Origin: Ceratodon purpureus
Lineage: Eukaryota > Streptophyta > Bryopsida > Pseudoditrichales > Ditrichaceae
Assembly (NCBI GenBank): GCA_014871385.1
Contig: CM026426.1
Span: 633,201-697,200, forward strand
Direction of reading: 5' to 3'
Length of the DNA: 64,000 nt
The notes beneath the pieces were generated by a model, which was not told where the DNA came from, did no database searches, and saw nothing but the letters and a program-made list of their open reading frames with translations. The position numbers were made by a program, and so were the translations under genes. How positions within the stretch are numbered: the stretch's first letter is position 1; every line of letters begins with the position of its first letter. This document shows positions 20,364 through 50,084 of this stretch, piece by piece.

Positions 20364-20392
20364 AAGGGGTATTTAAGTAATTATGGACAAAA
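20364..20392 (+). repeat. Left terminal inverted repeat of element A
   Basis: It begins AAGGGGTATTTAAG and ends GGACAAAA. It pairs with 43924-43952 with three mismatches. A second AATTATGGAC follows 15 bases inward, a hint of subterminal repetition. Confidence 0.75.
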
Positions 20393-20603
20393 CGCTCAAT
20401 TATGGACTACTTTGCATCATCAGTAGACGTCCAATTCATGCGTTATCCCTCAAATTTAAAGACAAAGATGTCAAATATTTATGAAAAAATGCATTCCGCA
20501 TACAAGGGATAAAATCATTTGAGTGAATTTTAATATAATGCTGAAATGAGGACATCCAAGTCCCACTGTCATGGCCGAAGCCCTCAGCGAGTGGCTGACA
20601 AAA

Positions 20604-20645
20604 AACCCTAAACCCTAGAAACCCTAAATCCTAGAAACCCTATCC
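20604..20645. repeat. Interstitial plant telomere-like repeats
   Basis: AAACCCTAAACCCTAGAAAC and further ACCCTAAAT / AACCCT units form a short degenerate array about 240 bp inside element A's left end. The unit is the plant type (TTTAGGG on the other strand). Such telo-boxes also occur in plant promoters. Confidence 0.6.
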
Positions 20646-21184
20646 TTAGAAATCTATCTTTTCTAATAAAAATAAATACATGCTCTGCAAAATGTGGATC
20701 TGTGAAGTGAAGCGGGTGAAGGGAAGATCGTCGGCGAACCGCTGAGTGGACACGACTGCCAGGCATCTCACATTGAGGTGTCCGTCTGTGAGGACTCCGG
20801 AGTCGTCGTTCAGAATGAACAGTATTCACGGTCACAACGTTCGAAGTCCTTTCTAGTCGGCTGGACGCCGACTAGGAGAGCCAACCTCTTCCTTACTGAA
20901 CCGACCTGTGGAATTTGAAACACATATAAAAATGATGAGAAACCGTCACATAATGCGGCATTAAAAATACATCAGGAAGAAAAGTAACTACCCATATGGT
21001 TTAGGGTGTAGGGTGTTCGCCTAAAAGAGCGTTCAAAGGAGACAATGCATGGTCCTGATTTTAGAAATTGGGATAAGTTGTCATATGATAAATTGTACTC
21101 TTCAAAAGTAGACCATACCAGGAGAAGTACACAATATTGGTTAATTACGCTTGGATAAATATCTGCAAAAGACGATATGTTATT

Positions 21185-21360
21185 TCTACTTCGGTTAGTC
21201 CGAGTTAAGGTAGTCCTAGTCGACTACCTGCCGACTAGGAGAGTAGGTGCTACTGGGCTAGCTACGGCTACCTGCAGATAGTCAAGCTAGTCCTACTCGG
21301 CTACCCGTCGACTAGGAGAGTAGGCGCTACTAGACTAGGTCCACGTTGGCAACTAGTCGT
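21185..21360. repeat. Duplicated palindrome-rich segment near element A's left end
   Basis: A unit GTCCTAGTCGACTACCTGCC continuing GACTAGGAGAGTAGGTGCTACT is repeated about 75 bp later as GTCCTACTCGGCTACCCGTC and GACTAGGAGAGTAGGCGCTACT. Each contains a CTAGTCG/CGACTAG-type inverted pair related to the GCCGACTAGG seen with the element palindrome at 20856-20876. Confidence 0.6.
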
Positions 21361-21506
21361 CCAGAAAATCCTAGAGAAGTGGATTACTAGAACTTTTACC
21401 AGTTTAGTAGACGAACTCCAGCCGGATACTGTAGAAGAAGGTCGCATACTGTAGAAGTTGGTCGCATATTGTCCAATATTTTGTCATATTGTCCAATATT
21501 TTGTAG

Positions 21507-22069
21507 CAATGTGGGGTATCCGCAGTATCAGGAGACACCGGCTGACCTCGAGGAGCTCCGGCCATGGTATAGGGCGGTGGTCGCCCGTTCTCGCAATACC
21601 GCCATTCCTGCTTTCAAATACATCACACGCCTTTTGCAGCCAATTGCGGAGTGGTATTGGAGTCTTGCTCACAACTTAGAATTGCTGGAGATATCTGACG
21701 CTTCCGGCATCGCCTTCCCACTGACGTTCCAGGAGTCCAAGAGTGTTGGCAGCGTTCACTTCAGCCACACAGGGGAAGTGTCAAAGCAAACCATATCAAC
21801 TGCACGGTGGCTCCGCCTTGTTGACGAAGCATACGACATCTCGGAGGGTGCTGGAAGTTGGTGCTCTGGCCAAGATCAGTGGTGCGGAGGGAACGCAAGC
21901 CCGCAGTCCACGTATTCGTCGTTTGGATCTGTGCATCCATCTGTCGATACTGGGTGTAGTGCTGTCCGAGCGAAGTCTACTGCGAAGGACTGATTGCTGC
22001 ATGGCCGTTGGCGACCATATGCGGCTTTTCTCCGTGTACAAAGGCTACGGGAGAATTAGTGAGTGTTGA
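21507..22069 (+). pseudogene. Unrecognised exon-like coding sequence in element A
   Basis: After a TTTTGTAG acceptor-like site at 21506 the frame reads VGYPQYQETPADLEELRPWY and continues through helical, Trp- and Leu-rich sequence to about 21850 (LRLVDEAYDISE). Beyond that two frames are open, one to 21993 and the other to TGA at about 22069 (LDLCIHLSILGVVL). A frame change or an unseen intron is likely near 21860. No family recognised. It lies on the opposite strand to the DUF7869 gene, converging with it. Confidence 0.4.
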
Positions 22070-22647
22070 CATTGTCCAGCTCGTTTTCAATAGAGCTGCT
22101 TCACACACTGAGATAGTTGTAGAATTCATGGTTAGCATTTGTTACTGAGGCTTTAGGAGTAATGGCATCTCTGATGTATACACAATACAAAGTAACATGT
22201 AAAGGGCGTAACACTACCGTTGTACTCCGATTAGAATATAATGGAATGGATAAATATTTTTTCCCGGTTTCTCCAAGCGCATAGTGGTTCTACCAATGTT
22301 GTGGAAAGCGTCGACGGGCAGCCGACTAGTGTAACAGTGTCCACCGTAAAAATCACAGGCCATACAATATAGACCAGCCTTACGAAGTCACCGATCATGA
22401 TGCTTATCTAGTATGGTTAGAAGCATCGGCGGACAGCCGACGACCACCGAAGAAGGAAAAGGAAGGCATCAGAACAACAAATAAAAGACAAAGCGTAATA
22501 CATGACTAGTATTGGGTCTATGGTAAAATACAATTCTTATTTAAAGGAATCACAATGTTTACAATATTCAACTATAACGTCGATAGAGGAAACCATCACA
22601 ACCTACGTCTTCTACAACTAAGATCACAATCGTCGGCGGGCCGCCGA

Positions 22648-23172
22648 CTACTCTTCCTCCTCGTCATTCCAGTTCATCGAGATTCCATGCGATTCGAAGT
22701 TTGCCATGGCAGCAATCACAACCTCTTTGGGTATTAGATGGGACTTTGAAAGGCCCTCGTGCATAGTTTTCTTGGTCCTATGAGTATATACAACGGATTT
22801 ACACTCCACCCACTCCGCGAGAGTCAACTCCCTTTCCCACTGTCTTGTCCAGCACTCTCTCGCAACTTTTTTCTTACCTTCTTTCTTGCCCTTCATCGGA
22901 GTCCACCATTCAACCTTGAACTTACCATAATTAGGACCAGGCTCTGTTATAACAGGCTCTATCGCCCTACCCATCCAAATGGGTAGGTGGTCTTCCTTAC
23001 ACGGACGACAGAACATTCAATCGCCACGTAACACGTCAGGATATGGGTTAAACACAGACTTCGGCCTAGATTTTTTTGGACCGCAGAAAGGATAAGGCTC
23101 CACCTCATCCTTGTCACCGGGACGGATATCCGGATCCGGTATATATTCGTCCTCTGCATCGAATGTGGTGAC
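22648..23172 (-). pseudogene. C-terminal part of the DUF7869 gene, cut off by the gypsy insertion
   Basis: On the minus strand the frame runs from the target duplication through FDAEDEYIPDPDIRPGDKDE, one in-frame stop near 23017 and a Trp-rich segment (FKVEWWTPMKGKKEGKKK). It ends WNDEEE(E) at TAG 22648-22650. Excising the gypsy and one GTGGT copy joins this to the sequence at 31884 in the same frame, so both are parts of one gene. A Trp-rich acidic C-terminus is usual in DUF7869 proteins. The stop codon abuts an element palindrome (22632-22648). Confidence 0.65.
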
Positions 23173-23177
23173 GTGGT
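23173..23177. other. Left target-site duplication GTGGT of the gypsy
   Basis: GTGGT directly precedes the 5' LTR and recurs at 31879-31883 after the 3' LTR. Five bases is the normal duplication for Ty3/gypsy elements. Confidence 0.9.
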
Positions 23178-23840
23178 TGTTACCGCTCCAGCAAGGCCAG
23201 CAAGGATAGCCTAGGACGGTGGGACTGATAGTGCAACAAGGAGTTACAAGGAGAAGTTCAATTAGATTAGTATAAACAGGGTAGTCAGGGTAGAGAACAT
23301 ACTCCTCAATTTTGCGGTTAGAGTCGAGTCCGGTCTCAGAGCAGCTGGTTTTCCTAGAGCAGCTTGCCCCCTCATGTAAGCACCTGAACCTTGGTGTTCA
23401 TGGACATTCTTGGTTTTTTAAGCTAATACTACACTATCTCTTCCCCACCCTCTGCCCTCCCTTGTCTCGCTTGTCTGAAACTTGCTTGCTGTTCGATTGC
23501 TCTACTGAACTCACGTGTTTCTGACCCTTGCCTTGCACTGTCCCGACTACCGAGCCTTCTCGGAATCCATTGCTTTTCCCTCTCTTGGTATTCACGGGGT
23601 CTTGGTTGGGGCTCTACCTATCTGGTTTCCACGGCTGACTCAGGATTGAACTGCGCGCCCGTGGAAGACCCAACGGTCCCAGGTCCGGTACCAAGGAGCA
23701 CCCTGATGGCCCTATGACTGTGCATCGGGACTAACCGCCACGGTCCCTCTTTAATTTGCCCCACATAACCAGTCTCGAACTTTTGCCCTTGACCCCGGAT
23801 TCTCACCTCAGGCAGCTCCATGTTATGACCTAGGCTAACA
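23178..23840 (+). repeat. 5' LTR of the gypsy
   Basis: 663 bp, ends TGTTA and TAACA. The reading-frame-like peptide at 23312-23524 is shared exactly with the 3' LTR and is not a gene. Promoter and polyadenylation signals are expected in an LTR, but I do not see a certain TATA box. Confidence 0.95.
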
Positions 23841-23843
23841 TTT

Positions 23844-23861
23844 TGGCGACCATGCTGGGGA
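23844..23861 (+). promoter_or_regulatory. Primer-binding site of the gypsy
   Basis: TGGCGACCATGCTGGGGA starts three bases after the 5' LTR. It begins with TGG, complementary to a tRNA 3' CCA, and resembles the arginine-tRNA-type site of Tat/Ogre elements. The tRNA identity is inference from memory of that group. Confidence 0.75.
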
Positions 23862-23911
23862 TGGTCTGCTGAGGTTATTCCAAATACTTCCTTGAAAACT
23901 AAACTCTCAGC

Positions 23912-24960
23912 ATGCCTCCAAGGAAACTCCCCTTGGAGCGCATAAATGAAGCTGAAGACGCTGCTCAACAGGAGGATTCCGAATCCATAAAAGAATTCTT
24001 AGTATGGATGAGAGAGCAAATGACTGACCTAGTAGCCATGAACGAGGCTACTAACGCCAAGTTAGAACTACTTAGTGCACAATATCACACACTGCAAGAA
24101 AGCAGAACACAAGAGGCTCTCCACCCCATGGCTCAGGCTTCAGAGGCCCTCCCTAAGACTATAAGATCCACAACGTTACCTTGGGAAAACCATACTGCTG
24201 CCACAGCACCTAGCCAAGGGGACCTAAGTAAACATACCAAGTATCCCAAAATCTCTTACCCTGTGTTTGATGAATCAGGGGATCCAGATTGGCATATCAG
24301 AAGTTTCAAAGTTATTGCCTGTACAAATGGGGTCACCTGCACTGAAGATCTCCAAAACATTTTCGGCACCACGCTCCAAGGAAACCACATTCATTGGTAC
24401 ATTGATTTTGAAACTGAACACTCCCACGCAACCTGGGAAGACATGGAACGAAGTTTTCTACATAAATTTAGAAAACTTAAAACCAGTTCCAAGGTCCTAA
24501 GAGCTGTGGGTAGCATTACTCAGGACAGAAATGAACCCGTGGACAAGTTCTACGATAGATTCAAACAACTTGCTGACAAACTAAGTGAGAGACCTGAAGA
24601 AGATTATCTTTGCGAATGGTTTAGAAAGGGACTGTTACCATGGATTCAACAAGGCATTGTAATCCGTGGGGTTAAGACTTTACAAGATATTTTGAGTGCG
24701 GCAAATGACATTAGCCGAGAGTTAGGGGCCTTAAACAAAACTTGCTACCTTTGCCAAATTTACGACCAGAAAATAGACGGCCAGTAAACCCCTGTTCCAG
24801 CTGTGGAAAAATCCATGGAGGTCGATGCTGGTATGCTAATACCCCTTCTCGAATTGAAGAGAACCGCCGTCCTCGTCCTACCACAGCAGCCGTGTATCCA
24901 GAAGAAATCAATGTTGATGCCTTCCAGCCCAGCCGAAGCGATGCCTGCTGGGAATGTTGA
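23912..24960 (+). pseudogene. gag: gag of the gypsy element, with a frame change before its zinc knuckle
   Basis: From ATG 23912 the frame encodes 291 residues with the usual retrotransposon gag helix region (VDKFYDRFKQLADKLSE near residues 211-227). It ends at TAA 24785-24787. The zinc knuckle CSSCGKIHGGRC (CX2CX3HX3C, common in plant gypsy gag) is in the next frame, 24742-24960, where TGA 24958-24960 stops it. Either a one-base change or a programmed shift separates them. The later stop and further downstream shift favour mutation. Confidence 0.8.
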
Positions 24961-25143
24961 TCAGTAACCCACCGACGGAGCCAATGTCCATAGTTACATC
25001 AGAGATGGGCCCAGTACCGTGCCAACCCAGGGAATCATGGCACCGTAGAACATCAGAAAGCCCCTGGAACCCCTAGACAAGGTGGAGTCACACTTACTGA
25101 GGTCCATGGAGTCGAAACTAATGTATCCACAATCAGCACGGCC

Positions 25144-25857
25144 GTGGTAACGACCAGATCCAAAACTACCACGGACGACCATGTGGTTGAACACAGAAAA
25201 CCATTTTCGGAAAATCATTGGGAAAGGCTACACAGAATCAGGCAAGACCTACATGATGGCCTAGAAGGTCCACACGACACCACGTCATTACAACAGATTT
25301 TAGATGATACCAATGTGACCATCACATTCTCCAAGTTAATCAAATTAAGCCCAAAACTTCAGAAATACTTACAACAAACAGCCTCACCGGATGAACCATC
25401 CAATCCAGAGGTTTTTGAAGTTATTGCTACTACATTAGACCCGGATGCCGCAGTGATACATTTACAACTTGGAAACCATGAATTAACCAATGTGTTAGTA
25501 GATGGAGGATCTGGAGTTAACGTTATGAGCAATTATTTAAGAAAACAATTGGGATTACCATCACCCAAGTTAGCCCGGTTTATCCTGCGCATGGCAAATA
25601 ATGCCCTAGTAACACCCTTGGGCATAATATCAACCGTAGCTATTACTACACATGGAGTATCTACCCGAGCTACCTTCGTAGTAGTTGATATGCCTGATAG
25701 CAGTAATTTCCCTGTCATCCTGGGAACACCATGGCTGAGAGATATGAATGCTGTACACGACTGGTCCACGAATCAGATCCAAATTCAGCGACAAGGAAAA
25801 ACCGTGGTCATCCTAGTTGATAGCTGCATCACCAGGGCAAAAGCCAACCAAATTTGA
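25144..25857 (+). pseudogene. pol: Protease region of gypsy pol
   Basis: The frame contains NVLVDGGSGVNVMSNYL around residues 118-134, the retropepsin active-site loop with DGG as in several plant Tat-type proteases. ILGTPWLRDMNAVHDW follows near residue 196. It ends at TGA 25855-25857, one C-to-T change from CGA, and continues in the same frame into the reverse transcriptase part. Confidence 0.8.
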
Positions 25858-27596
25858 CACAAGGCAGGAACAAATTGGGAAGATGGTCTTTCTCCATCAC
25901 AAGAAGCCTTGGTTTTCCAAGCCAATCCCGACTTGATTCCACTAGCAGAAATTCACTTGGCCAGCATCGTAGCTGAGCAAGACCAAATGGACATACCTCC
26001 ACATTTTTCCCAGGAAACTCAAGAAGCGGTAACCGTAAATGCTATTCCTGCCAACCAAGCTCTGCAAAAGGAAGTGGTTACTGGTTGGTCTCATGGTGCT
26101 AAAGACAAAGTGGAGTTAGTAAACTTGGGAACCATGGAAAACTCCAAGTATATCAAAATCAATGCTGATGCTCCTGAGCAAATCAAACAAGCCGCGATAG
26201 CCCTGTTCCATGAATATCAGGACATTTTTGCATGGGGCCACGAAGATCTTAAAGGGATACCTCTAACGCGAGCAGAACACACTATAGACCTGGTCCCAAA
26301 TGCCACACCAGTCCAACAACGAAGATACAGAATGAACCCGAATTATGCAGTACGAGTCAAGGCTGAACTTGACAAACTCTTGAAAGCCAAGTTCATTTCA
26401 CCAGTAGACTCTGCACCCTGGTTATCTCCCATGGTGATTATTCCCAAGAAAAATGGACCTTGAGAATCTGTGTAGATTTTCGTAAATTAAATGCGGCTAT
26501 CAAGAAAGACCATTACCCCTTGCCTTACATGGAAGAAATCATTGATGAAGTAGCCAGTCATGATATGTACTCTTTCTTAGATTGTTTTTCAGGATATTAC
26601 CAAGTAGCCATGGCCGAGCACGATAAAAATAAAACGGCTTTCTCTACCGAGTGGGGACCATATCAGTTTCAAAGAATGCCTTTCGGAGCTAAAATTGCAC
26701 CCATGACTTTCCAACGTGTCATGGAATTAATTTTTAGACCCTATTTGAAAAGATTCTTTAGAATATATCTCGATGATGGAACGGTTTATGGACAGATTAA
26801 AGATCATGTGTCACAACTCAGGCAAATATTCGAAGCTTGCCGAGTCAACGGGGTTAGCTTGAATGCAGAGAAATGTATGTTTCTCTTCTTTGCGGGTGCG
26901 ATCCTCGGCTACATCGTACGCAAATACAGAAAACTTCCGGATCCCAAGAAAATCAAGGATATCCTAGCCATCACCCCTCCCACAGATCAGAAGGGGATAC
27001 AACGTTTATTGGGCTTGTCTCAATTTAACAAAATATATATAGCCCCGATCACAGCATTGAACCACGCAAAATACAAGTATCCTCAGGACTGGACCCCTGC
27101 AGCCCAGGCCGCCTTGGAAAAAATCAAGATAGCTTATTCTCGGGCCCCTATTCTCATAGCCCCGGATTGGTCCAAACCATTCCATGTTCATACCGATGCC
27201 TCCAACATCGCTGTCGGCGTCATGCTTGCTCAGAACTTGAATGGAAAATATGACCAACCAGTAGCATACGCTAGTCGCCTCTTAAATCAAGCAAAAAAGA
27301 ATTATTCTACCACCAAAAGAGAAGCTTTGGCCATGATTTATGCTGTCAAGAAATTCCGCCATTATTTACTAGGCAACAAGTTCCGTTTTATGGTTGATCA
27401 TCACAGTTTATCTTACCTGGTCAATCAACCCTTGGTCACAGGGCGAGTAGCTCGTTGGATCATGATTCTCCTGAAATATGACTTTGAAGTGGTTTATGTA
27501 CCAGGCAAACGCCACATAGTGGCTGAGTTTCTATCTAGGGATTCCAAGGCAACCGAGGAAGGCATTGATGATTCATTTAATGAGCCTTATATCTAG
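25858..27596 (+). pseudogene. pol: Reverse transcriptase and RNase H region of gypsy pol
   Basis: The RT starts in the protease frame (VQQRRYRMNPNYAVRVKAEL; SPMVIIPKKNGP) and is broken at 26461 by a one-base loss inside the KKNGTWR motif. The next frame carries RICVDFRKLN, YQFQRMPFGAKIAP and the catalytic YLDD at about 26767. RNase H follows, with HTDASNIAVGVMLAQ around 27190-27234 and YSTTKREALAMIYAVKKFRHY near 27305. All core residues seen are present, so only the frame break and stops disable it. Confidence 0.9.
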
Positions 27597-29117
27597 ACTG
27601 CTAGCCTTGAAATTAGTATTCCCATGGATTGGCGTGGAGACATCATACGCTATCTAACTCAAGGCGTAACCCCAGAGGGCCTCTCAGGAACAAGGAAAGT
27701 CAGTTTCGTACGCACTACCTTGCCATATACCATGGTTAAGAGACAACTCTACCGCCTCGGGCCAGACCAGGAAACTCGTCTCTGCGTCCCCACAGGAGAA
27801 GAGCAAAACATAATCGCCATTCTCCATGATGGACCTGCAGGTGGTCACCAAGGCCCTGATACCACGATAAAGAAAATTTTGACTGCCCGCTACTGGTGGC
27901 CAACATTACACAAAGATGTCCACGAATATGTTAAGCACTGCCATGCATGCCAAATTTCTACCACGAATTTTCAATATCAAGGCCGCGTACCATTAAAATC
28001 CATTCCGCCGTTGGGACCATTCCAGCGTTGGGGGCTAGATTTTGTTGGCCCCATTAGACCCGCAACCAAACAGGGTTACAAGTACATCTTGGGAGCCACG
28101 GATTAAACCACCAAGTGGGTTGAGGCAAAACCTCTCAGAACAAACACGGCCATGGTCACAGCAACTTTCATATATGAAAATATTATTACTCGTTTTGGCT
28201 GCCCCTTGGAAATCGTGTCCGACCATGGAAGCCATTTTGTGAACGCAGTGATAGAAGACCTCTTAGATAATCATATCATCAAACACAGACTTAGCATAGT
28301 TTACTACCCCCAGGGAAATGGACAGGCAGAGTCTACCAATAAAACCTTGATCAACATGTTACGCAGGTTCATACATGCAAATTAGAGTGATTGGGATGAT
28401 TCTCTGGCTGCAGCCCTGTGGGCATACCGTGTAGCCACAAAAATAGCTACTCAGGTAAGCCCCTTCGAAATGGTATATGGTACACAACCTCTATTACCTA
28501 CCAAGTACGTAGCCCCCACTTTCCAATCCCTGGATCCCAAGGACTACACACCCCATCGAGTCCTGGCTGCCCGTCTAAGGGACATCCACCATCTAGAAGA
28601 AGTCCGGGCTTTTGCACTTAAAAACATCCAAAACAAACAGGAGAAGACTGCTAGGTATTTCCAAGCTTCCAAACCAGTCCGGGCTTTTGAAAAAGGTGAT
28701 CAAGTTTTATGGTGCCCACGAGACCCAAAAACCACGAAGACTAAATTCGAATCAATATGGCATGGACCGTACCGAGTTCAGCTGGTGCTTCCAAACAATA
28801 CTATCCTATTGGTAAATAACGACTACTTTGACAAATATGCAACCATTGTTAATTCTACCAAACTTAAACATTATCATTCGGTCACCACGGAAACAGCCCC
28901 CACACTTAGCCTTGGGGAGATTTATAAAACCATGGCCACCGAGGCACAAAATGATGAGGAACCTGAGGACACAACTCAGCCCAAGGAACCCATGGACCCC
29001 ATGGAATTTCACATCAGCCTAGTTCAAGTATGCCTACATGGTAGCCAAGACTCCATGGACAGTCCCATCGAGGGGACACTTCAAGTTCCCCTTGGCCCCC
29101 GCACACATAGGCCCTAG
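27597..29117 (+). pseudogene. pol: Integrase region of gypsy pol
   Basis: Same frame as the RT. The HHCC zinc domain (ILHDGPAGGHQG, then CHACQ) lies at about 27820-27950. The DDE core has WGLDFVGPI near 28030, SDHGSHFVN near 28220 and [16 protein letters not shown] near 28305. TAA at 28104-28106 and TAG at 28383-28385 interrupt it. The C-terminal tail runs to TAG 29115-29117 with an SH3-like FEKGDQVLWCPRD segment near 28690. No chromodomain is obvious. Confidence 0.9.
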
Positions 29118-31215
29118 CCGCCACAATCATTGCGGGGCACGCTGCTAGGCAGGGTCCAGCCAGACTGTCTCCTCCAACTCCTATCTATCCCATCACGGCT
29201 GCAAAGGTCCCATGGAGCTATCTTAGCTCACCCTTTAATTTCTTCCCTCAGCTCCCTTTGCCCTTTGCGTCTGTCCACCTCCCTTTCTTCATGGTGTCTC
29301 GGTGCACCATTCTCCACGCATTTCCGTGAGTGCGCACAGACTGTGTCCCAAGGCATTGACTGCTCTTCGTTTTCTTCCTCATCTCTTCAGCTTCCCGCAT
29401 TCCTCTCTCACTGCCAGTGCTCCGTACTTGCGACACACTACACAGAATTAGCATCCATGGAGAGCCGCAAGGTCTAGCCTCCATTCCATGTTCCACGCAT
29501 GATCATGGAATGGAAGAGGCAGCCGGACCTCATCTGGCTCACGGAGACAAGGTTAGCACGTTACTTGACCTTGCTCGATGGGAAGGTCAACATCAAGCAT
29601 TGCACCGAATTTGTGAACTCTATGCGCACACAAAGCGAGTCAGCAACTCACCCGGCTGGTGTCGTGGATGGCGAGCTTGTGGAGTATACCAGCAGGTATC
29701 TCCACAAGTTCTTCGGCTCGGACGGACTAGGCGCCACCGCGTGGAACGAAGGCTCGCGCTATCCCCAACCAGACGTCTTGGCTCGCGTAGGCAGCTTGGA
29801 GCCCCAGAAGGACAGCACGTATGATGTTTTCACATTAGGCAATCACATGAAGGATCCATGGTTCTCAAGAATGCGTGGTGTTCTATCCCAGGTGTACTTC
29901 CAGAACAACTGCAATGGCATCCTGCCATCGCAGTTGTCCCAGCTGCTCTTGGCTGACCTTGGAGAGAAGATTAGTTGGGGCCTCATGGTGGAAGAGAATT
30001 TTCTCATCGAGATGCGTGGGTACCGGCAGCGCATCAATTACAGCAGCCCCGTGGGTCCGTTTTTAACAGCGTACATTGCCCATTTCTTGGCCTTCCACAA
30101 GAGATACAACAGACCGCCACTCATGGGAACCTTCTTTGACATCTAGAGGGAGATCGCCGCGGCCACGGCTCGAGACCCTGCTCTCCCAGGTTTGGAGCAG
30201 CAGAACCAAGAGTACTTGGCCAGGTGCAAGACCTTGGCATCCCAGGGGCAAAGTTCACATAGCACCGAGGATGTGGCGCAGATCCAGGAGCAGAAGGTCA
30301 CTGCAGAACTTGCAATGCAGACATTCAAGGCCAACAAGGTCGGATGGGTGCACAATGCAGCCAAACTGATTGCATTCAATGCATATCAGTGGCTGCGCAC
30401 CAATCCCCAAACAACCATGGATCCCCGGCAGGACTTCTTGAACCAGTGCATCGATGAGGCACTCGTCGCCTTGGAGTTAGAGCAGTCAGAAAATGACTGG
30501 GACAACATGGAGCTCGAGGCCATGTCTCCACCGTCGCACATGGAACTTGCGCCCTTCAGCCCTGCCACACACCCAAAGAAAGACCATCGATTGGCTGCCA
30601 TCTCCGACATCGAGACCCAAGACGACCGAGTCCATATCCCCGAGCACTTCACGGATCCCGAGGATTCTCTACAGCCGTCACCTCGCCTGCTTCCTGCAGC
30701 CCAAGCTTCGCCAAGTTTGCCCCCTACAACCCACGCATCACCAAGCTAGGTTACCACGCGACCCAAATCCTTTAGGAAACATAAGGAAGCATTAAAAAAG
30801 CTAGAGGAAGATTTCGGTCTTGAAGATCAGGCCAGTGATGAGGATGAAGCCAGGGACGAGTTAGAAATTGCTGTTGAAGAAGTTAAACGTTATTTTTCTG
30901 CAAATCCGGATTTGATCAACCTCTATAGTGATCCTGAAGCTGACCATGTGCAATGCCCTTCTTGCAACAAGATCCTACAAAAAACCGTTTATGACGTATA
31001 TCAGCATTCCATTACTTCCCGGTCTAAACATAACCTAATCCATAAGGGGGTGGGTGCAGCCAAAGCCGCCATATATGGAGACCAAGCACCTCCTTGTTGA
31101 CATGCCCCGGTACCACGAGAAGAGACCAGGCCAATTCGGAGACCTGCTCATAGGCGAACGCGTGGCTAAAGACCAACAATTCCAGACGAATTGCACTCTC
31201 CGAGTGAGGGCAAAA
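29118..31215 (+). pseudogene. Extra sense ORF of the gypsy, with C-terminal zinc-finger-like motif
   Basis: Between integrase and 3' LTR one frame stays coding-like for nearly 1.6 kb. Residues from 29499 (WKRQPDLIWLTETRLARYL) run through TAG 30144-30146, a helical region, a Pro/Ser-rich stretch ending at TAG 30747-30749, and an acidic coiled region. A CPSCNKILQKTVYDVYQH segment with a further H (NLIHKG) lies at about 30955-31045, resembling a CX2C...H...H zinc finger. Both stops are one C-to-T change from CAG. Additional sense ORFs at this place occur in Tat/Athila-type elements; the function of this one is unknown. Confidence 0.65.
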
Positions 31216-31878
31216 TGTTACCGCTCCAGCAAGGCCAGCAAGGATAGCCTAGGACGGTGGGACTGATAGTGCAACAAGGAGTTACAAGGAGAAGTTCAAT
31301 TAGATTAGTATAAACAGGGTAGTCAGGGTAGAGAACATACTCCTCAATTTTGCGGTTAGAGTCGAGTCCGGTCTCAGAGCAGCTGGTTTTCCTAGAGCAG
31401 CTTGCCCCCTCATGTAAGCACCTGAACCTTGGTGTTCATGGACATTCTTGGTTTTTTAAGCTAATACTACACTATCTCTTCCCCACCCTCTGCCCTCCCT
31501 TGTCTCGCTTGTCTGAAACTTGCTTGCTGTTCGATTGCTCTACTGAACTCACGTGTTTCTGACCCTTGCCTTGCACTGTCCCGACTACCGAGCCTTCTCG
31601 GAATCCATTGCTTTTCCCTCTCTTGGTATTCACGGGGTCTTGGTTGGGGCTCTACCTATCTGGTTTCCACGGCTGACTCAGGATTGAACTGCGCGCCCGT
31701 GGAAGACCCAACGGTCCCAGGTCCGGTACCAAGGAGCACCCTGATGGCCCTATGACTGTGCATCGGGACTAACCGCCACGGTCCCTCTTTAATTTGCCCC
31801 ACATAACCAGTCTCGAACTTTTGCCCTTGACCCCGGATTCTCACCTCAGGCAGCTCCATGTTATGACCCAGGCTAACA
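31216..31878 (+). repeat. 3' LTR of the gypsy
   Basis: 663 bp, same length as the 5' LTR. One difference seen by eye (C at 31869 for T at 23831). It is preceded by a short purine-rich GAGTGAGGGCAAAA that could be the polypurine tract. Confidence 0.95.
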
Positions 31879-31883
31879 GTGGT
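31879..31883. other. Right target-site duplication GTGGT of the gypsy
   Basis: Exact copy of 23173-23177. Confidence 0.9.
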
Positions 31884-34800: not shown

Positions 34801-35085
34801 ATCCGTCGGCGGGCAGCCAACGGCGTTGATGTCATCTTCTTCCACCTCTCTGAAAGGCCTAAGGTCTGCCGCCTCCCACAATATCATGCGTCCTAAGCAG
34901 TTGCTGAAGAACTTCACACCCTCATCCGGAAATGGTATATTCATTTCCATGTTGTCTGAAACCTCAATCACTATTACCATCACTACTATAGGATCAAATT
35001 CTACAACACGTTGGATCACTGCCCTGCCTACATAATAGAGCCCAGCTGAGTAAGGGCCACAACAACGCCCTTTTTGACCTTCCAC
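31884..35085 (-). pseudogene. DUF7869-domain gene of element A (N-terminal and central part)
   Basis: Read on the minus strand. The N-terminal part (35085 to 33793) is acidic and unrecognised and contains VGCPPT peptides made by element palindromes. Then come CCKDRCCQTF, a stop TGA, and FYATTFVARREM, followed by VCEVAWYIIHGVSKCTYYNY. A GCC/GTAAGT donor ends the exon at 33492. After an intron, with a TCTAG acceptor around 33368, the core runs through CTECDFLVELIAKYPRW to LYPQLDNSAKDNKNRFLLAF and VGHTHEDINAHFSHPSK (about 32525-32700), the signature of DUF7869 proteins. TAG 32461-32463, a TAA near 32160 and a TAG near 32040 follow, all in frame. The gene reaches the gypsy at 31884 and resumes at 23172. 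A role in transposition is inference. A frame shift probably lies between 33674 and 33500. Confidence 0.75.
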
Positions 35086-36136
35086 CGCCCTGATCGGCCA
35101 TTCCTTAGAAACGTCTGGATCGGCTCTACTTCCATTGGATAGAAGTAGAAGACATCGTCGGCGGACCGCCGATAGGGTCGACGGAAAGTGTCCCCGCAGA
35201 CGGAGAGAACTGTATCCGCCGACAACGAAGACGACTCGGCGGGCAGCCGACGCGGATTGTACAACTCGGAGTGTGCACAGAAATAGTATCCGCCGACGAA
35301 GACGGACACGTCCGCCGACAGAAATAGCAGGGGACCTTTCGTGAAAAGCAGTATGGTGTCCTCTAACCTGTCCAATCAGAGACTCCTCTCAACCGTCCAA
35401 TCAAAAACGATAGACGAAGACAACTGAAACGGCAACAGAAGGTGCTGGACAGTTACGCACATACCTGAATAATATCGGTCCTCTCAAGAAACGTGTGCGT
35501 GAGGAGCACTCTCAGAGGGAATCGAAAGTGCAATGACAGAAATAGAATGAAGCATGCGCATCTAACGGGGGGTTAGTTTTGAATTCCAAGGAGTACAGAA
35601 TTGGCGCCAGAATCGAATTCAATTTTGCGGGCCTTGAACAGATCAAGATCCCATCATGGCGGCAAGATACTCCCGTCCTCATAGAACAATGTTAATTCAT
35701 TATTACAAATTTGAACGTGGCGATTGGAGCAGCTGTCACATCACATGCCCACGCCAACATGACTTGGTGAAGATTCAAAAAAAGTCAAAACACGTCCCAT
35801 CAACATCCTATGTGGCGTGATGGGACGGATGTTAGGGATGACCATCCATGCATGGATGGTATGTACATGGCCATACGTCATGACCCATCAGGCGTGACGA
35901 TTCAGTCTCGGAAGGTGGAAGTCTGCAGGGTATACACCTGACATTTCCTCCTCATTTCCAGCCTTCTCTTTTCCAGCTCTCTTTTGTCCTCTTCTTAGCG
36001 CTCCGCAGAGGTCGCGTCGGCTGCTAGGGTTTCCTGCGTCGGCTGCTAGAATTCAGGGCGTCGACTCCTTCACCTGCGCGCGTCGGGTGCCGTACTCGGA
36101 TCATCTGCCGACGGTGAAAAGCCATCCGCCGACGAC
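35086..36136. promoter_or_regulatory. Divergent intergenic region of element A
   Basis: The minus-strand DUF7869 gene and the plus-strand multi-exon gene are read away from this stretch. It contains two full element palindromes (35157-35173, 35235-35252), isolated TCCGCCGAC half-sites near 35190-35320 and 36120, and a pyrimidine-rich part near 35935-36000. Core promoters are expected here, but I cannot fix a TATA box or start site. Confidence 0.45.
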
Positions 36137-36168
36137 ATGGCTGCCTCCCAGAGTGGGTAAGTTGCCCC

Positions 36169-36440
36169 GTCGGCTGTCCGCCGACGCCACCCCTTCATGA
36201 GTCATTCAAGTTTCTGTTTTCTCATTTGGGTTTGTCCCCCCCATCGGCTGTCCGCCGACGCCACCCCTTCTTGAGTCATTCAAGTTTCTGTTTTCTCATT
36301 TGGGTTTGTTCCCCCCGTCGGCTGTCCGCCGATGGGGTGGGAGTGTCCATCCCCTTCGTCAGCTGTCCGCCAATGGAGTGGGAGTGTCCATCCCCCTCGT
36401 CGGCTGTCCGGCGATGGAGTGGGACTCTGATGGTCTAATC
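36169..36440 (+). repeat. Tandem repeats that each begin with the element A palindrome
   Basis: The palindrome GTCGGCTGTCCGCCGAC or a variant starts at 36169, 36243, 36317, 36358 and 36399. The first two units are 74 bp long and share the segment GAGTCATTCAAGTTTCTGTT. The next two are 41 bp with GTGGGAGTGTCCATCCCC. The array follows a possible short first exon (ATG 36137, donor GTAAGT at 36157). Confidence 0.85.
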
Positions 36441-37910
36441 TTGTGATTCTGATTAGTCAAGGCGATGGTCGACCTCACCGCAAAACCAAATAGGTTACGG
36501 TGGCTCTGTGACAAGGTTGTTGATCCTGAAGGAACAATAGTTGCACGGGGCTTGAAACCGAGGGTGACATTCCTCGCTGATTTCAAGATAACGGTGTAGG
36601 GCGTCACCTGGCATGACACTCCCACGTCACTGGGCTTCGTGACCAAAATAGGTCAGAAGCAAATGGCAGGTGGACCAAGATACGAGATTATTGGAGCCAA
36701 GGAATGCAAGGATAAGAACAACGTGTGCTTGGTGATTGCATCGGTTCTTGTGGTGGAGGGGAATCCAGTGGACTGCTTCGCGGTTGTAATTCCGGCTAAG
36801 AAGTGCATGGACAGCTTGTGCTCCAAGGAAATACAGGAAGCGGCTCCTTGGGGCAGGGGCGAGAACACTACCGTAGGCGCTGACGACATACTCGACGTGA
36901 TTGATACGCTCGGAGACAAAGTCATGGAAGAAAAGACGAAGAACTTGGTTAAGCCTTCACCAAAGAAAAGAGGCGGCCGCAAGTCTGCTGTAGAAGCGGG
37001 CAGCGGTACAGTCACCCCCGAGACCGGAGAGACACAGGCAACAGGAGAGTCATCGAGAAAGAAGAAGGGAAAGGCAGCGGCTGCTGAGGGCGAGGGTGGG
37101 AGACAGAAGAAAGGTGGGAAGAAGGAAGAGAAAAAGCAGACCGTGACGGAAGCTCTCATGCTCGCAAACAATCTCACTTCCAAAACAAAGGACACCGACG
37201 TCCTTGCTATGTACCAGACGTTGGAGGAGGGACTTGGGCATTGCTCCCCCAACGGGCAACGTGCCTTTCCTTGTCAGATTCCATATGACAGGATACACAT
37301 AGCTCCCGATACATTTAAGTACAGAGCGATATTCAGGAAGAGGCAGGATCAGATAAGTCTTTTCTACAAAGGACTAGGAGCAATTCGGAAGAAGCCCGAG
37401 TTGTACTGCCTTCCTATGAGTGGTGACCCCAGAGTAAAGGATCCAATGACGGGCGAGATTATTAAGCTTAAAGGCTTGGAAGCACTTCTTAGACCTTTGC
37501 CAGCCCTAAATATCAAGTATTCGTATAAACAGGCTGATGGCACACAGAAGGAGGTACCTTGTTATGAAGATGAGCTCATCCACTGGTACATAATTGGGGC
37601 CAGCACACGTTTGAGGCTTGTCGAGAACTGGGAGAGAAGGAACCATTGGACTCTCCTATGCGGCAGTATTACCTTAACCACGATATCATTCATGTATGGT
37701 CTGATGACGAGGATACCCTCATCAAGGTCTCTAACGCATTAAACATCGAGGTGAAGGATAAAGTCGCCGAAGTAAGTTTTAGGTCCCAGCTGGAGAAGAT
37801 GCGCGCCAAATGGATCGAGAGGGGGAGGATTGACAAGAAAGCTGACTTCAACGCATGGAAGGTAAGTCACATCTTCCTCTTTTCCTGTTGTTTACATGTA
37901 GTTGAAAGTC

Positions 37911-37927
37911 GTCGGCGGCCCGCCGAC
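37911..37927. repeat. Element A palindrome inside an intron
   Basis: GTCGGCGGCCCGCCGAC, about 50 bp after the GTAAGT donor. It is followed by GCTCA, as is the copy in the next intron at 39373-39389. Confidence 0.85.
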
Positions 37928-39372
37928 GCTCACGTGGTTTTCCGTATTGTAATTGTGGGATTTATTTATCAATGTCATTTTCTTCTTCCTTGCAGGAGTT
38001 CTGCAAGGAGTACCTCAGTCCGATTCTCGGAAAGTCCCCTATAGCCCAAACCATCAAGCTGCCCTTAGTCTTTGTATCTGACGAAGCAAACAACGAGTAG
38101 CAACTAGTCTTCAACGCCTGGGAGGAGGGGAGGATCATTGGGGAGGACGGTTTAAAACCAGGATTTCCCCTAAAGCCAGCCCGCCGAGACATAACGCTGA
38201 ACGACATGGAGTGGGTGATCGGTCTTCGGGACCACGAATGCAAGAGGCTGGCCGAGGAAATTGTGGACCTTAAAGTGTACCTCAAGGTCACTGGGAAAGA
38301 GGTGGTTCAACGAGATGGAACATCATTGCAGAATTGGTGTCAGCATGTGAAATACGAGTGTGCTGTCCAAAACGAGCTCATGTGCATTTACAAGGGCTTC
38401 GCACTTAAGAAACCAGGGACTGGGAAGCATATTGAGTGGAGCTTGGATGACTGGAATTCCCTTGAAGTCGAGAAGGGGTTCAATGATACAATGGTTAGTA
38501 ATATTCGAGCTGACTTGGAAGATAGTCCTGAGGGGAAGGAGTGGCTTAGGGAAGAAATCATCCGCTCAGGCCGTCGTACGGGGCAACACCCGAATTCTTC
38601 AAGGGCATTGTGCAGAAGTATTGGAAGTCGGATGTGGACCAGTCTTCGCAGTCGTCTGTACAATTCGATGCCCAAATTGCACATGACTTGGGTGAAGTGT
38701 GCACAACTCTTGACGTTTGCGAAGCATTCTCCTTTGACAAGGCGCAGTAAGAGATGTTCGTAGTCTTTGGCTACGATCGAGCGGGAAAGGAGATGCCGAA
38801 CTTGCGACATAAAGACATTCTAAGCGTCCCTGAGAGGATTCACCGTGACGTGGAGGAGCAGGTCATTCATGTGGGTGGAGAGGGAGAAACAACTAAGGTA
38901 AATAAGCTTGTCACCCCATCCTTGTGGCTACTCGATGCTGAGTCCAATTACAATCTTCAAGGCGTGTCAAGGCTGACGGGTAGTTCGTGGACTGTGCATA
39001 CTATGCAATACTTCTCCGATAGTTCCGCCGGGTTTCAAAGGAGTTCTCTCATTGACTCTAGGCCCAATGTTCATGTGTCCATTATGTATCCATAAACAAC
39101 GCCCGTGGATGCATGAAATACCCTCTCGGACTTCACTGGTTTGAAATGGCCGCTTCCTCCCTATGTGGATGAAGGAGTAGACGGTCTTGGGGAGGATTGG
39201 TCTAATGGAGACTGCCACGCTAGTTACTCTTACCTCCAATCTCTTCTGGAGAAAGCGATGCAGTTAGACGACGTTCGGGTGATCAATTGCTGGGGAGGTG
39301 GGAACGTCACGGCCCTCGCTCTGGTAAGTCACTGCTGTCTCTTCTAGTGCCTTCGCTGTTTGCTTACCGATC

Positions 39373-39389
39373 GTCGGCGGGCAGCCGAC
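39373..39389. repeat. Element A palindrome inside the next intron
   Basis: GTCGGCGGGCAGCCGAC followed by GCTCA, between donor GTAAGT at 39324 and acceptor TTCTGCAG at 39457. Position and flank match the copy at 37911. Confidence 0.85.
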
Positions 39390-41277
39390 GCTCATTGCAT
39401 CCTATGTGTTTCTTAGGTACAAGATTTCCTTAACCGTTTCGTCTTGTTCTTCTGCAGAAAAACCATTTGACAGTAATAGAGATCGTGCGTACCAAGGAAG
39501 AGAGATTCCAAGCACACTGTCGGGTTCGGAATATGACGTTCATTCCGGGCGTATATAACGTGCCCCTCGAAGCTCCAGTTCAGAACACGCACTCTGGGGC
39601 CCGGCCGACTGTCCCCGCCTCTGCTAGAGCCAGGACTGGCACTCTCACGCCTGCCGACTTCCGTGTGAATGCGGAGGAGGCCCATTTGGTCAAGAAGTGT
39701 GGATGTATGGGTTCAAGGAAGACTGCAGGGGTTCCTTCACAGAATTTTCTGGACCCCGACGACGACGACGAGGAGCCATATGTACCCGGCCCAGACGTTG
39801 AAGCTGAAGCTTACCTTCCAACTGGAGATGCTGAGGAACAGGTAAGATACGACGACGACCAAGCTGAAGCTCGCATTCCAACTAGGGATGCAGAGGTAGA
39901 GGAGAGATACACGGAGTACTTAGACTATGAACCAGAACCCGACGTGGTACCACTGGAAGATTCGAATCCTCGTTACGTAAACCCACCGTTGTCGCAAGTT
40001 ATAGGGGAGCAAGGAACTGTCTCCCTCGGCTTCGATAATAATTCTCCTACAATACATGAGCTGGAGACTCTGTCCGCCAAGCCAGTACTTGACCTAGAAC
40101 AGGCGGGGCCTCCAAAAAAGATGCAGGTTCCTCTAGCATCGAGGCCTAACCAAGAACTAGTTGTCCGTGTCCATAAACCAACCCAGGAGCCTGCAATGAG
40201 CATTAGAGGGCATCTTCCTCCTGCTGCCAACGGCGGGCAGCCGACGGCAGACGAGCAAACCTCATCTAACTCCACTGCCAAGTCGAAGTGCAGACCCAGT
40301 GCAGTTCTGGAGCAGGGACCTCCACCTCTGAATTCAGTTCACATAGCCCGGGAACAGGCTAGTACTCAGGTACACGATCCGGTGCTGAAGTACTTTCTGG
40401 TTCTGGATATTAATGGCCTGCTATAAGTCCAGACAAAGAGTGGCACTAGGTGGAATACTAAAACTAGATCGAGTTTAGAGAAGTTCCTAGAGTTCTGCCT
40501 AGACAATTTCGAGGTGGTCTTGTGGAGCTGCGTACAGGAAAAGAGGTTTGAGATACTGTGGAAAGTGTTGCAGGAGCGCTCTCCTTGTGTAGATGCTGAA
40601 GTGCGCTACAAGTTCGACTAGAGTTTCTGCGAGACTTGCGTACATAAGGCTGGTAGGGAGTTTTAACTGAAGAGACTCCAGACCCTCTTCGACCTCGATG
40701 ACGGTCTGAAGGGGACGGCGCCGTCTTCAATTAACACTCTCTTGGTTAATGATTCCCCTTATAAGAATGTCGCAAACACTCCTTGGAACGCTGTGCACCC
40801 TACACCATATACCTTAGATTCGAAGGAGTCGGAAAATAAGAGGAATTATCTGGTTGGAGAATTGATTCCTTGGCTTACAAGATTGAAAGAATCCAAACTC
40901 CTCGTGCCCGAGTACTGCCAGAAACACTCCAAATTTGGTCACGGTCATCTGTTTCCGGGGGATGAAGCTTATAGTCTCTTTTCTCCACACATTGATTGCC
41001 CTAAACGAAAGAGAACATAGGAGAAGTAGAAACTGTTTTAGAGAACATGCACATGATTCAGTTGGCTGCCCGCCGATGGGATCTTCATGTATTTAGACTT
41101 TTACAGTAAATAAAGTTTTCCTCCTTTTAAGTATATGAGAACGGAACTCAGTGTCGAGACTGTATATTCTGTCGTGGATGTCTTATTGTATCTCCTATTG
41201 TACGCCAGAGTATGTATGAATTGTGAACACGTAATTGACCGCCGCTGTTTACTTGGAATTTGTCCTTCACTGTTCAG

Positions 41278-42375
41278 GAATCACTGGAGGATGACGCCAG
41301 AGTTGAAGTGCACTAGGGACCTTCCCTCTTTAATATGCTCTTGGAGCAGTACCCAACATCTCTTGATGGTGATGCTCTCAAAGAAAAGTCTTCGGGAGCG
41401 GAAGCCGAGAAAGAAAGTGATGGAGAGGACGCGTACGACTATCCTGTCGGCGGACCACCGACGCTGTCTGCTGGACATAGCTCCCGCCGGTGTGCTATGG
41501 CTTCCACCTTGTTCGTCGAGACCAACGTTGGGATCCCGCGCACCGGTTCCCCGCAAACTGATTCCGTCAGTGTCAGCACTGATATTATCCCGCGTAATAT
41601 TGAGGTACCTCTCCAACGATACTACCTTGTCCTTGACATTAAGGGATTGCTCATTGCGGAGCACCACGGGTATATTGGTGATGACCGAAAGACAAAAATT
41701 CATATCCGGGCTAGACCTGGACTTCTTTCATTTCTAGAGTTCTGCACGGCAAATTTCGAGGTAGTCTTTTGGTCCACGGTTTCTGATAAGAATCTCGATC
41801 GTCACTACCATAAGCTGTTAGCCATTCATCCTTTGCTCACGAGCAATTACAGACGCCTTCCAGGATATTGGTGCAATATCTTGACAAGAAATAATTCTAA
41901 TGGAAAACGGGAGTACTTGTTGAAGCGTTTGGATAGACTTTTCTGCGACACTAGGCTACTGGCTCGATCAAGCGCCACTGTCCAGAATACCCTACTGGTA
42001 GACGACCGGCCTTATAGGAATGTACTTAATCATCCATTTAGCGCTGTCCATCATAATTCTTTCTTCTGGGACTCTGCAGAGTGCAAAGAACCTCAATCCA
42101 CCCCCAATTCCTATTTAACTTGGGTAGTTACACCATTCCTTCTAGGACTTAAGAAGTCTGGATTGGATGTCCAGGAGTATTGTAGGAAGAATTCTAGCAT
42201 GGGGAAGCCACGTCTTTTTCCAGAGTCTCGCGAATACCAGAAGTATAGGGAGGTTATTCCTTCTCATGCATGCGGGTTTGACGTCGCGGGTAATGCTGGA
42301 TCTTGGTTTGTGAATTTACCTCGTCCTCCGGAGGCCCCTGGTAGTTCCATCGTCGGCGGGCAGCCGACTGATTAG
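41278..42375 (+). pseudogene. FCP1/NIF-like HAD gene, copy 2
   Basis: An exon begins after TTCAG at 41277 (ESLEDDARVEVH). It meets TAG 41314-41316 and then stays open for 346 codons from 41335 to TAG 42373-42375. The HAD domain has YYLVLDIKGLLIAEH near residue 93, LSFLEFCTANFEVVFWSTVS near 125 and NTLLVDDRPYRNVLNHPF near 218, typical of FCP1/NIF-like proteins. DIK replaces the catalytic DxD, so phosphatase activity is not expected. Palindromes are translated as VGGPPT near the start and as VGGQPTD just before the stop. It follows copy 1 on the same strand and may be a separate gene or a further exon set. Confidence 0.7.
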
Positions 42376-42726
42376 AGCCTATACAAGCGGCGCTATTTGT
42401 TAAAAAAATCACATATGATACTCTACACTCTTTAGTTAAATACGCTAAGACTGTTCCCTTTCTGAACTTCCCTGCACCACACATTTGTTTCCAGTGCTGC
42501 AGTTCGATACTTCTTTTTGTAGATCCATGCATGAGATTTCCCTTGCTGCACATTTACCTTTGAGGTTTCTTCAATGCATCGATTTGTCGGCGGGTCGCCG
42601 ACGACTTTGAATGTAGTCCATTTTTTCCATATACTTCCTCCTGTTCCTTGATTTCCTTCACTGATTGCACTTCATATTCTTCAAGGTTCCTCGTTTTATT
42701 TCAAATGCCTTCACGGTCCACCCCAT

Positions 42727-43365
42727 CATGTTAAGAAATGTATTGTCCTAGGCGTCAATGGCCTTCTTTACTATGTGGATCTCAATATACCTGCTTTTCC
42801 ATGGGATACGCATCGGAATGTAGTGCAGCGCCCAGGTTTGAAGAAGCTTTTTGACATGCTTTTCTTGCATTTCCATGTTGGTCTGTGGTCAAAGATGCCC
42901 TCGGGAGAACTGAAGCCTTTACTCACACATATTCTGCCGGCCGGTGTAATGGAGAGGCTGTCCTTCGTGTATAGCAGAAGTGACCTTATCGACCGGGAGA
43001 ATTTCCCCTGGAGTTATAAGACGTTAGGTCAAGTTTGCTCCAAGGTACAGTCTCGTAACGTCTGCAAACTAGATCAGGTGCTATTTGTGGATGTTGACCC
43101 GAGGTCATTGAGGAAGACACCAAACTGTATGTGCTACATTCCTTGGCCTTTTTAGGGTCATCTAAATTTTCCGAACGATGACGGCGTTATACCTAACATT
43201 GCTACAAATATCCTTCCTGTGGTATATCCCTTGCACAAGTTCGGATCTGTACCGGAGTATATGGCGCAGGCAAGGAGGTCGGGGCAAGTGCACTGGGCAA
43301 TTGATGCTGCGAGAAAGTTTGGACGTGCACGAGTGGACTGGACTGAAGTTTGCTGGGACTGAGTT
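42727..43365 (+). pseudogene. FCP1/NIF-like HAD gene, copy 3
   Basis: The frame reads CIVLGVNGLLYYVDLNIPAF, then RPGLKKLFDMLFLHFHVGLW and LDQVLFVDVDPRSLRKTPN. At 43153-43155 a TAG falls inside a segment that aligns with the region B copy (WPF-GHLNFPNDDGVIPNIA here, MPW-GEMTLPNASNVIPNLA there). Coding-like sequence then continues to TGA near 43361. The first catalytic Asp is replaced (LGVNG), making it even less enzyme-like than copies 1 and 2. It is the last gene before the right end of element A. Confidence 0.65.
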
Positions 43366-43923
43366 AAGCGGACTTTTTCGCCTACAAGTTCCACTTCTTC
43401 CCTCCTCCTGACCAACAGAACACCTTCCATCGGCTGCCCGCCGACTTGGTCGATCCGTTGGTGCGGCCTTCAAATATATGATTTACTCATTGACCTTACG
43501 GCTATGCTTTCAGGGAAATAGTTCCCCGAGTAGGTTATAATGTGATAGGATTTACGTCAACTTGGTACATAGAGGTGGATGTAGACTTAATGTTGTAGGA
43601 CTTAATGATTCAAAGTGCTACGGGACTAGTTAGTTTAGCGTGTTCTGTTATCGGCGGGATGCCGACTCTGTATTGTACATTTCAATACTGATTCAACATG
43701 ATATTCTTTAAAGTATTCATTGTAACTCTTATTCTGCATCATATGTCGCAATCTTCGGTTTCATATATCCATCACTGGCAAATTCCGCCCATGTACATAT
43801 CGATGTCCACTTTTGCATTCCATATTTTCTGGTATTCATGTACTCTGATAGTGTTCATCCGTGGTCTCCATCCATCGGCGGTCCGCTGAGTTCAGATTGG
43901 CCATTTCCGAATTCTAGACTTTT

Positions 43924-43952
43924 TTTTGTCCAGAATTACCTAAATATCCCTT
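43924..43952 (-). repeat. Right terminal inverted repeat of element A
   Basis: TTTTGTCCAGAATTACCTAA continuing to ATATCCCTT. Its complement matches the left end at 26 of 29 positions. AAAT follows at 43953-43956. Confidence 0.75.
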
Positions 43953-50082: not shown

Positions 50083-50084
50083 CT

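Follow-up and report, generated by a model that had tools for sequence, protein, structure and literature searches.

Within the 64-kb window analysed here, a 64,000-nucleotide stretch of the moss Ceratodon purpureus, lies element A, a DNA transposon of about 15.7 kb of the cut-and-paste kind, with inverted ends and a 4-bp target-site duplication. Next to it stands a truncated relative, element B. Each element carries a dyad-symmetric word of its own that is scattered from one end to the other, and the two words differ (Table 1). A sequence-only reading of the window had picked out the palindrome of A; the differing palindrome of B is more informative than the points made there, where the relatedness of the two elements was overlooked. 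The reading that we favour, and that we judge to be about evenly poised, is that the palindromes are operator-like sites of a sequence-specific, probably dimeric protein encoded by each family itself, with an anti-silencing or expression role as the most likely function.

Results

Element A and its palindrome

The window is part of contig C6, and three complete copies of element A lie on contig C1 (C1:1251698-1267319, C1:4083214-4098961 and C1:5718254-5734014; 15,622, 15,748 and 15,761 bp). They share the terminal inverted repeats (TIRs) of the window copy, are 97.4-99.1% identical to one another and are flanked by the duplications TTAT, ATAA and ACAT; a 4-bp target duplication thus accompanies four of four A copies, the window copy included. 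At one mismatch or fewer the complete copies hold 27, 27 and 28 palindromes at the same places, differing only in the number of units in one tandem array and in one site that was lost from two copies through a 19-bp deletion, the ends of which do not resemble the palindrome.

Searched as GTCGGCN5GCCGAC with up to two mismatches, the motif matches 29 times in the window, against 0.70 expected from 100 dinucleotide shuffles (largest shuffle count, 4). Element A holds 25 of these matches, among them three sites (20730, 21219 and 21296) absent from the sequence-only list, and none of the 29 falls in the nested gypsy element, in the long interspersed nuclear element (LINE) or in element B. The other four matches lie outside A, at 4.2-9.3 kb (4180, 4363, 9245 and 9334). 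A palindrome-like 17-mer is present at all 24 coordinates first listed; that all share the stem was slightly overstated, since both 6-bp arms are exact at 8 of them (20856, 22632, 34448, 36169, 37911, 39373, 42352 and 42586) and 22 are within two mismatches, while 36358 and 43874 have three. The exact 17-mer GTCGGCGGGCAGCCGAC occurs three times in the window. Contrary to the description of a variable 5-base centre, the centre is constrained and the outer bases are relaxed, so that the motif is better written GTCGGCKGNCMGCCGAC; the occurrence of both orientations is true solely of its unsymmetrical K/M centre.

Across the whole 362.5-Mb assembly, which all our genome-wide counts cover, the exact-arm pattern of A has 2,858 sites, against 3 for a reversed-pattern control. 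Its distribution is therefore described neither by chance nor by equal density in unrelated DNA, the two outcomes that would have spoken against element-specificity. The first 50 sites listed all belong to contig C1; 49 of them are within 15 kb of a DUF7869 match and the remaining one is a lone site, while such 15-kb zones make up 0.9% of that contig. The specificity for the element proposed earlier is thus borne out, both by the 25 of 29 sites in the window and by these places in the genome.

The form of the sites is informative in its own right. Half-sites (GTCGGC[GT]G) outside the A palindromes number 10, against 0.6 expected in shuffles (largest count 4 among 200). We scored the six stem pairs in 40 distinct A sites, picked at two mismatches or fewer, and found 36 one-sided cells (24 that break pairing and 12 that leave G:T) against a single compensatory Watson-Crick change. 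The inner 7/11 pair is unpaired in 23 of the 40 sites, and the outermost pair is the least conserved, with both outer bases kept in 17 of the 40.

Table 1. Elements A and B in the window, with their palindromes and genes (window coordinates; site positions are first bases)
Feature	Position	Strand	Description	Evidence
Element A copy	20364..43952		DUF7869 DNA transposon with GTCGGCKGNCMGCCGAC palindromes, within LINE, split by gypsy	TIRs AAGGGGTATTTAAGTAATTATGGAC / AAGGGATATTTAGGTAATTCTGGAC
Target-site duplication, left of A	20360..20363		AAAT	
Target-site duplication, right of A	43953..43956		AAAT	
A palindromes left of gypsy insert	20730..22648		20730, 20856, 21219, 21296, 22310, 22425, 22632	
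A palindromes and tandem array	33414..36415		33414, 34448, 34805, 35157, 35235; array 36169-36415 of 74- and 41-bp units, before Lys-rich gene	
A palindromes in introns, junctions and a few frames	37911..43890		37911, 39373, 40229, 41061, 41446, 42352, 42586, 43429, 43650, 43874	
Transposase gene of A	32461..35388	-	DUF7869 exon 32461-33366 (decayed in window), N-terminal exon 33790-35388	Pfam PF25273, E 5.7e-31
Lys-rich "K" protein and acidic frame of A	36600..40426	+	K frames 36600-37742 and 38101-38763; acidic frame 39434-40426	No convincing known domain; relatives P0002-P0050
NIF (NLI interacting factor-like phosphatase) frames of A	40360..43155	+	Three frames: first broken in window, read in copy c1; 41317-42375 and 42652-43155 open	Pfam PF03031
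Truncated element B	45070..53555		Related transposon with palindrome GATYGTAGGATCCTACRATC; pieces 66-77% identical to complete copy b1	Left TIR ATGCCACATTTAAGTAAAT
Element B palindromes	45280..52448		16 sites, 7 exact: 45280, 45954, 48494, 48552, 48608, 50063, 51604, 51677, 51736, 51793, 51853, 51913, 52257, 52313, 52370, 52429	
NIF frame of B	45417..45929	-		PF03031, E 6.3e-05
K-protein-region frame of B	50268..50885	-	Placed via position in b1 (blastn)	No Pfam match

Related families with words of their own

Complete copies of element B are found at C1:6618585-6637170 (18,586 bp, duplication AATT) and on contig C2 (18,833 bp, duplication ATAT), so that both of the two complete copies have a 4-bp target duplication. 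The ends of B resemble those of A (ATGCCACATTTAAGTAAATCYGGACTT), and the block ATTTAAGTAA is common to both. The gene set and its order are the same, with 47% identity between the transposases, 36% in the exon upstream, 23% (tblastn) or 29% (MAFFT) for K and 27-34% for the NIF proteins; judged by these likenesses, A and B are homologous transposons. The palindrome of B, GATCGTAGGATCCTACGATC (written GATYGTAGGATCCTACRATC), is a different word from that of A. Its exact sites number 741 genome-wide (control, 0), and it occurs 34 and 35 times in the complete copies (two mismatches or fewer) and 16 times in the window copy at three mismatches or fewer, where 0.00 are expected.

A third group of DUF7869 loci adds a third word, TTTAGCTCAN3TGAGCTAAA, with 809 genome sites against 0 for the control. 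At a DUF7869 locus of this group on contig C6 (L053), where one 980-aa frame encodes the transposase without the intron of A and B, TTTAGCTCA-N3-TGAGCTAAA forms a 25-bp tandem array directly 5' of the gene and degenerate copies follow 3', placing sites at both gene flanks within the 5.3-kb stretch from which this locus, like the further loci L051 and L052, is known. Of 50 third-family sites listed, 48 lie within 20 kb of DUF7869 matches and 45 within 15 kb. Of the encoded proteins, only the transposase has been followed through A, B and the third family.

Two smaller observations concern A and B. A left-end block with a small gene (window 21310-21780; 836-1368 in copy c1) is 82-85% identical between the two elements, the rest being far more diverged, and perhaps reflects a recent exchange. 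A 256-bp stretch at 47864-48119 is 89% identical to the sequence immediately beyond the right end of copy b1, so that one small repeat is present at the two sites.

Placement of the sites

Sites occupy corresponding places in A and B (element coordinates). On the 3' side of the transposase gene they lie at 1894-2216 in A and 1966-2242 in B, within its intron at 4292 in A and 4349-4614 in B, and on its 5' side at 6164-6242 in A and 6076-6431 in B. The K gene has sites on its 5' side (7184-7445 in A, 10735-11027 in B) and in an intron (8949 in A, 12575-12753 in B). Coding sequence is avoided: it makes up 68% of A and holds 5 of 27 sites there (P 1.6e-7), and it makes up 50% of B and holds 3 of 34 (P 3.5e-7), the coding blocks being hand-drawn from frames and homology and the tandem sites not independent. 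The five in-frame A palindromes (5454, 5811, 11262, 13115 and 14021 in copy c1) read as VGCPPT, VGGQPT, VGGPPT or IGGQPT-like peptides and leave the frame unbroken. The palindrome is absent from the TIRs, and the last 500 bp at the ends hold 2 of 27 sites in A (1.7 expected) and 0 of 34 in B (1.8 expected). There is hence no enrichment toward the ends, in agreement with the earlier description of sites that run the full length and are not subterminal.

Encoded proteins

DUF7869 (PF25273) scores 108 bits in the window, 150.7 in the homologue P0051 and 152.8 in L053, against a cut-off of 26, and no second Pfam family rises above its cut-off in the DUF7869 frames scanned. The model of P0051 has a DDE/RNase-H-like fold with an acidic triad; on this modelled fold the protein is a DDE-type transposase. 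The element A protein belongs among the DUF7869 proteins of mosses and liverworts, with named relatives in Ceratodon, Physcomitrium and Riccia (e.g. KC19_7G136300 and M758_UG068900 of Ceratodon purpureus). Element A further encodes three NIF phosphatase-like frames, and NIF-gene copies in the genome number at least 109, at 93-99% identity (109 of 872 candidates scored).

For the K protein, a search for relatives in IMG/VR gave 46 pattern matches, of which 0 were confirmed. Its segment IIGGQHTFEACREL resembles the ParB N-terminal (GERR) motif by eye, without a Pfam match. A ParB/parS identity finds no support in Pfam, in a PDB sequence search or in Foldseek, VIA-align and hhalign runs: alignment to 79 ParB sequences by hhalign gave P 0.17, a poorer value than that of the N-terminal half used as a control (P 0.037), and no ParB entry is among the structure-search matches listed for K. 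Since the K model is poor (predicted local distance difference test, pLDDT, 54), a ParB-like fold may remain. Two other candidates fell below their cut-offs, a GILT match of a K frame (17.1 bits; cut-off 22.4) and a Pox_Ag35 match of an acidic frame of B (18.9 bits; cut-off 28.3).

Neighbouring repeats

The gypsy element nested in A (23178-31878) has long terminal repeats identical over their first 653 bases and a 5-bp duplication, GTGGT; it is a very recent insertion and is devoid of A palindromes. Directly to the right of A, a LINE reverse transcriptase domain resumes (RVT_1, E 7.5e-9 in 43959-44384), whereas the left part of the LINE (about 19480-20363) matched no Pfam family. A single LINE (about 19480-20363 and 43957-45069) seems to have been cut twice, by A and by B, and this old LINE therefore marks the insertion points of both transposons. 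Farther left, two frames (245-1003 and 7759-8586) look kinase-like by eye, with a Pfam E of 0.1 for the second and no match for the first; they flank stretches rich in GC (3980-4570 and 8900-9690), where poly-C runs and other inverted repeats occur, and this is possibly another large element. A further repeat element is a 362-nt inverted repeat (58869-59230 and 61623-61984, 96% complementary), a diverged copy of which sits in element B at 46980-47448.

Discussion

What reads these palindromes? The sites are dyad-symmetric, family-specific and mostly noncoding, half-sites accompany them, and their changes are one-sided; together these features point to a protein that reads double-stranded DNA, in the simplest case as a dimer. 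Unrelated words at corresponding places suggest that site and reader changed together, and the reader is therefore probably encoded by the element; our best guess is the fast-evolving, Lys-rich K protein. With sites at promoters, introns and gene junctions over 15-19 kb, the protein of a family could coat its own copies and no others. Such a coat would most likely keep the chromatin of the element open or its genes expressed despite host silencing, as VANC does for VANDAL transposons, or might alternatively serve the control of transposition; the step from binding to anti-silencing leans on this analogy. If the specificity of the protein changed, the sites would turn over together, largely via tandem duplication, and we propose that this is why equivalent positions in related families hold different words. 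We count in favour of this reading that three families have three palindromes, each far above its control (2,858 vs 3, 741 vs 0 and 809 vs 0), that the sites of A and B share their landmarks and avoid coding sequence, that the sites of B are better retained than their surroundings, and that tandem palindrome arrays occur in A, B and the third family.

Several observations weigh against it. The K protein has no recognisable DNA-binding fold, its model being poor. The further DUF7869 loci L051 and L052, two of the three sampled, have no repeated palindrome in their 5.3 kb, and the system may therefore not be general in the DUF7869 group. Confinement to elements was checked for two of the three words, at the first 50 listed places each. 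Constraint on the sites of B, which speaks for the reading, is clear with one caveat: identity between the window copy and b1 is 223/248 in sites, against 505/767 in flanks and 4,982/7,008 elsewhere (P 4e-15 and 1e-12), values that anchoring of the alignment on the repeats may have raised; of the 20 sites in b1, the window copy lacks 6 and has all but lost 2 others. In A, such constraint is not shown. Between the window copy and c1, identity is 242/260 in sites, 2,274/2,553 in flanks (P 0.025) and 13,121/14,281 elsewhere (P 0.29), and 28 aligned young copies (loci L021-L050 without the partial L023, L037 and L038 and without L029, which is identical to c1, plus c1 and c2; 4.1 kb with 7 sites) show no significant site conservation or CpG protection, with 1.9% of stem CpG changed against 2.4% of other CpG (permutation, 3,434 of 10,000) and 1.6% against 1.2% for non-CpG positions.

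Binding by the DUF7869 transposase itself, for autoregulation, for synapsis of the ends across a long element or as a means of titrating the enzyme, is an unlikely but live possibility. In its favour, every one of the three families has this protein, a DDE-like fold is modelled for it, its N-terminal part is Cys-rich and by eye helix-turn-helix-like, and DDE enzymes are commonly dimeric or multimeric. Against it stand the TIRs, which lack the palindrome, the absence of end enrichment (2/27 against 1.7 and 0/34 against 1.8 expected), and L051 and L052, which encode the same kind of transposase with no palindromes in the 5.3 kb seen. Host transcription factors are a distinctly unlikely reader. 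The GCCGAC of the A palindrome resembles the DRE/CRT core, a target of plant DREB (AP2/ERF) factors, and with two inverted RCCGAC cores per site, at promoters and introns, element A might borrow host stress regulation through DREB. The words of B and of the third family are, however, unrelated and lack CCGAC, the outer C of the core falls in the least conserved pair of the A sites (both outer bases in 17/40), and host genes would be expected to carry sites, yet 49 of 50 listed places are in element clusters.

We consider it very unlikely that the palindromes act as nucleic-acid structure, as a cruciform or an RNA hairpin that would shape transcripts or replication, for instance. They are inverted repeats, with perfect symmetry across 20 bp in B and 9-bp arms in the third family, but the changes in A are one-sided (36 against 1 compensatory), the 7/11 pair is mostly unpaired (23/40), no Rfam family matches in window 20000-54000, and sites occur between genes as well as within genes on either strand. 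A neutral origin, in which a chance word was spread by slippage, duplication and gene conversion, would account for tandem arrays with changes in unit number, for the lack of excess conservation in 28 young A copies and for how little there is in the window copy of A; we nonetheless find it improbable, given three independent long palindromes, their depletion from coding sequence, isolated intron sites with unrelated flanks and excess retention in B. The suggestion of a mobile palindrome, a MITE-like (miniature inverted-repeat transposable element) unit hopping within the element, fits the dispersal of sites among varied flanks and is otherwise hardly credible, because positions are fixed in the three aligned complete copies, the only isolated gain or loss is the 19-bp deletion without palindromic borders, and no target duplication is evident by eye in the aligned copies.

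How does an operator-like array read by an element-encoded protein compare with known systems? In CACTA En/Spm and hAT transposons, repeats bound by the transposase or TnpA lie in the terminal few hundred bases. The moss sites resemble them as repeated, short, element-specific and putatively protein-bound sequences in both orientations, and differ in having no concentration at the ends. Fungal and algal organelle genomes contain dispersed GC-rich palindromes that are thought to be mobile and structural; these too are short and scattered in introns, spacers and frames, whereas the moss sites are fixed in position and tied to a nuclear transposon family.

The closest likeness is to the VANDAL transposons of Arabidopsis. 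They, too, are large multi-gene DNA transposons of a land plant. The moss elements differ in having a DUF7869 transposase and not a MULE one (VANA), and in a 4-bp target duplication, that of VANDAL being about 9 bp. VANC-type domains (DUF1985/DUF287) had no match in the scanned frames of A and B, a scan that passed over short exons and some B frames. Element A is thus VANDAL/VANC-like in layout, but not a VANDAL. VANDAL elements, whose VANC proteins counter silencing (Hosaka et al. 2017, PMC5735166; Sasaki et al. 2023, PMC10398659), likewise have short family-specific motifs throughout their noncoding regions, and one family has other motifs than its relatives. The target of VANC21 is YAGTATTAY, found in noncoding stretches of VANDAL21 that are often tandem repeats; VANC6 recognises different motifs, and expressing VANC strips methylation over whole elements (PMC5735166). 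VANDAL motifs often stand in tandem repeats, as do some but not all of the sites in A. They are oriented and 8-9 bp long, in contrast to the dyad-symmetric moss motifs of 17-21 bp.

No paper naming DUF7869 was found in the literature searched, whose coverage leaves out subscription papers and Repbase, and no description of such elements is among the literature matches listed for palindromes in transposons, for moss transposons or for NIF together with a transposase. Private dispersed sites in a plant DNA transposon are a known kind of feature; here they occur in a varied form, in a transposon group found undescribed in the literature searched. More tentatively, and as a possibility that we would not call probable, we suggest that self-recognition and anti-silencing have arisen convergently in these apparently undescribed large moss transposons with their DUF7869 DDE transposase, Lys-rich protein and NIF phosphatase-like proteins. 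By analogy with VANC, the transposon's own protein would bind a private word at gene junctions, each family would open or compact only its own chromatin, and a joint switch of the protein and dozens of sites would give rise to a new family; in that case the NIF (FCP1-like) proteins would act on RNA polymerase II at the marked promoters.

In the literature searched, VANDAL/VANC is the only case we met of a plant transposon whose own anti-silencing protein binds short sites private to it. The words described here are long and rare in a genome of 362 Mb (controls 3, 0 and 0), and the binder can therefore be sought directly. If our reading is true, the same logic in unrelated moss transposons would suggest that sequence-private anti-silencing has evolved repeatedly, and three words, homologous transposases and corresponding positions would together form a natural series for the joint change in specificity of a protein and its dozens of sites.

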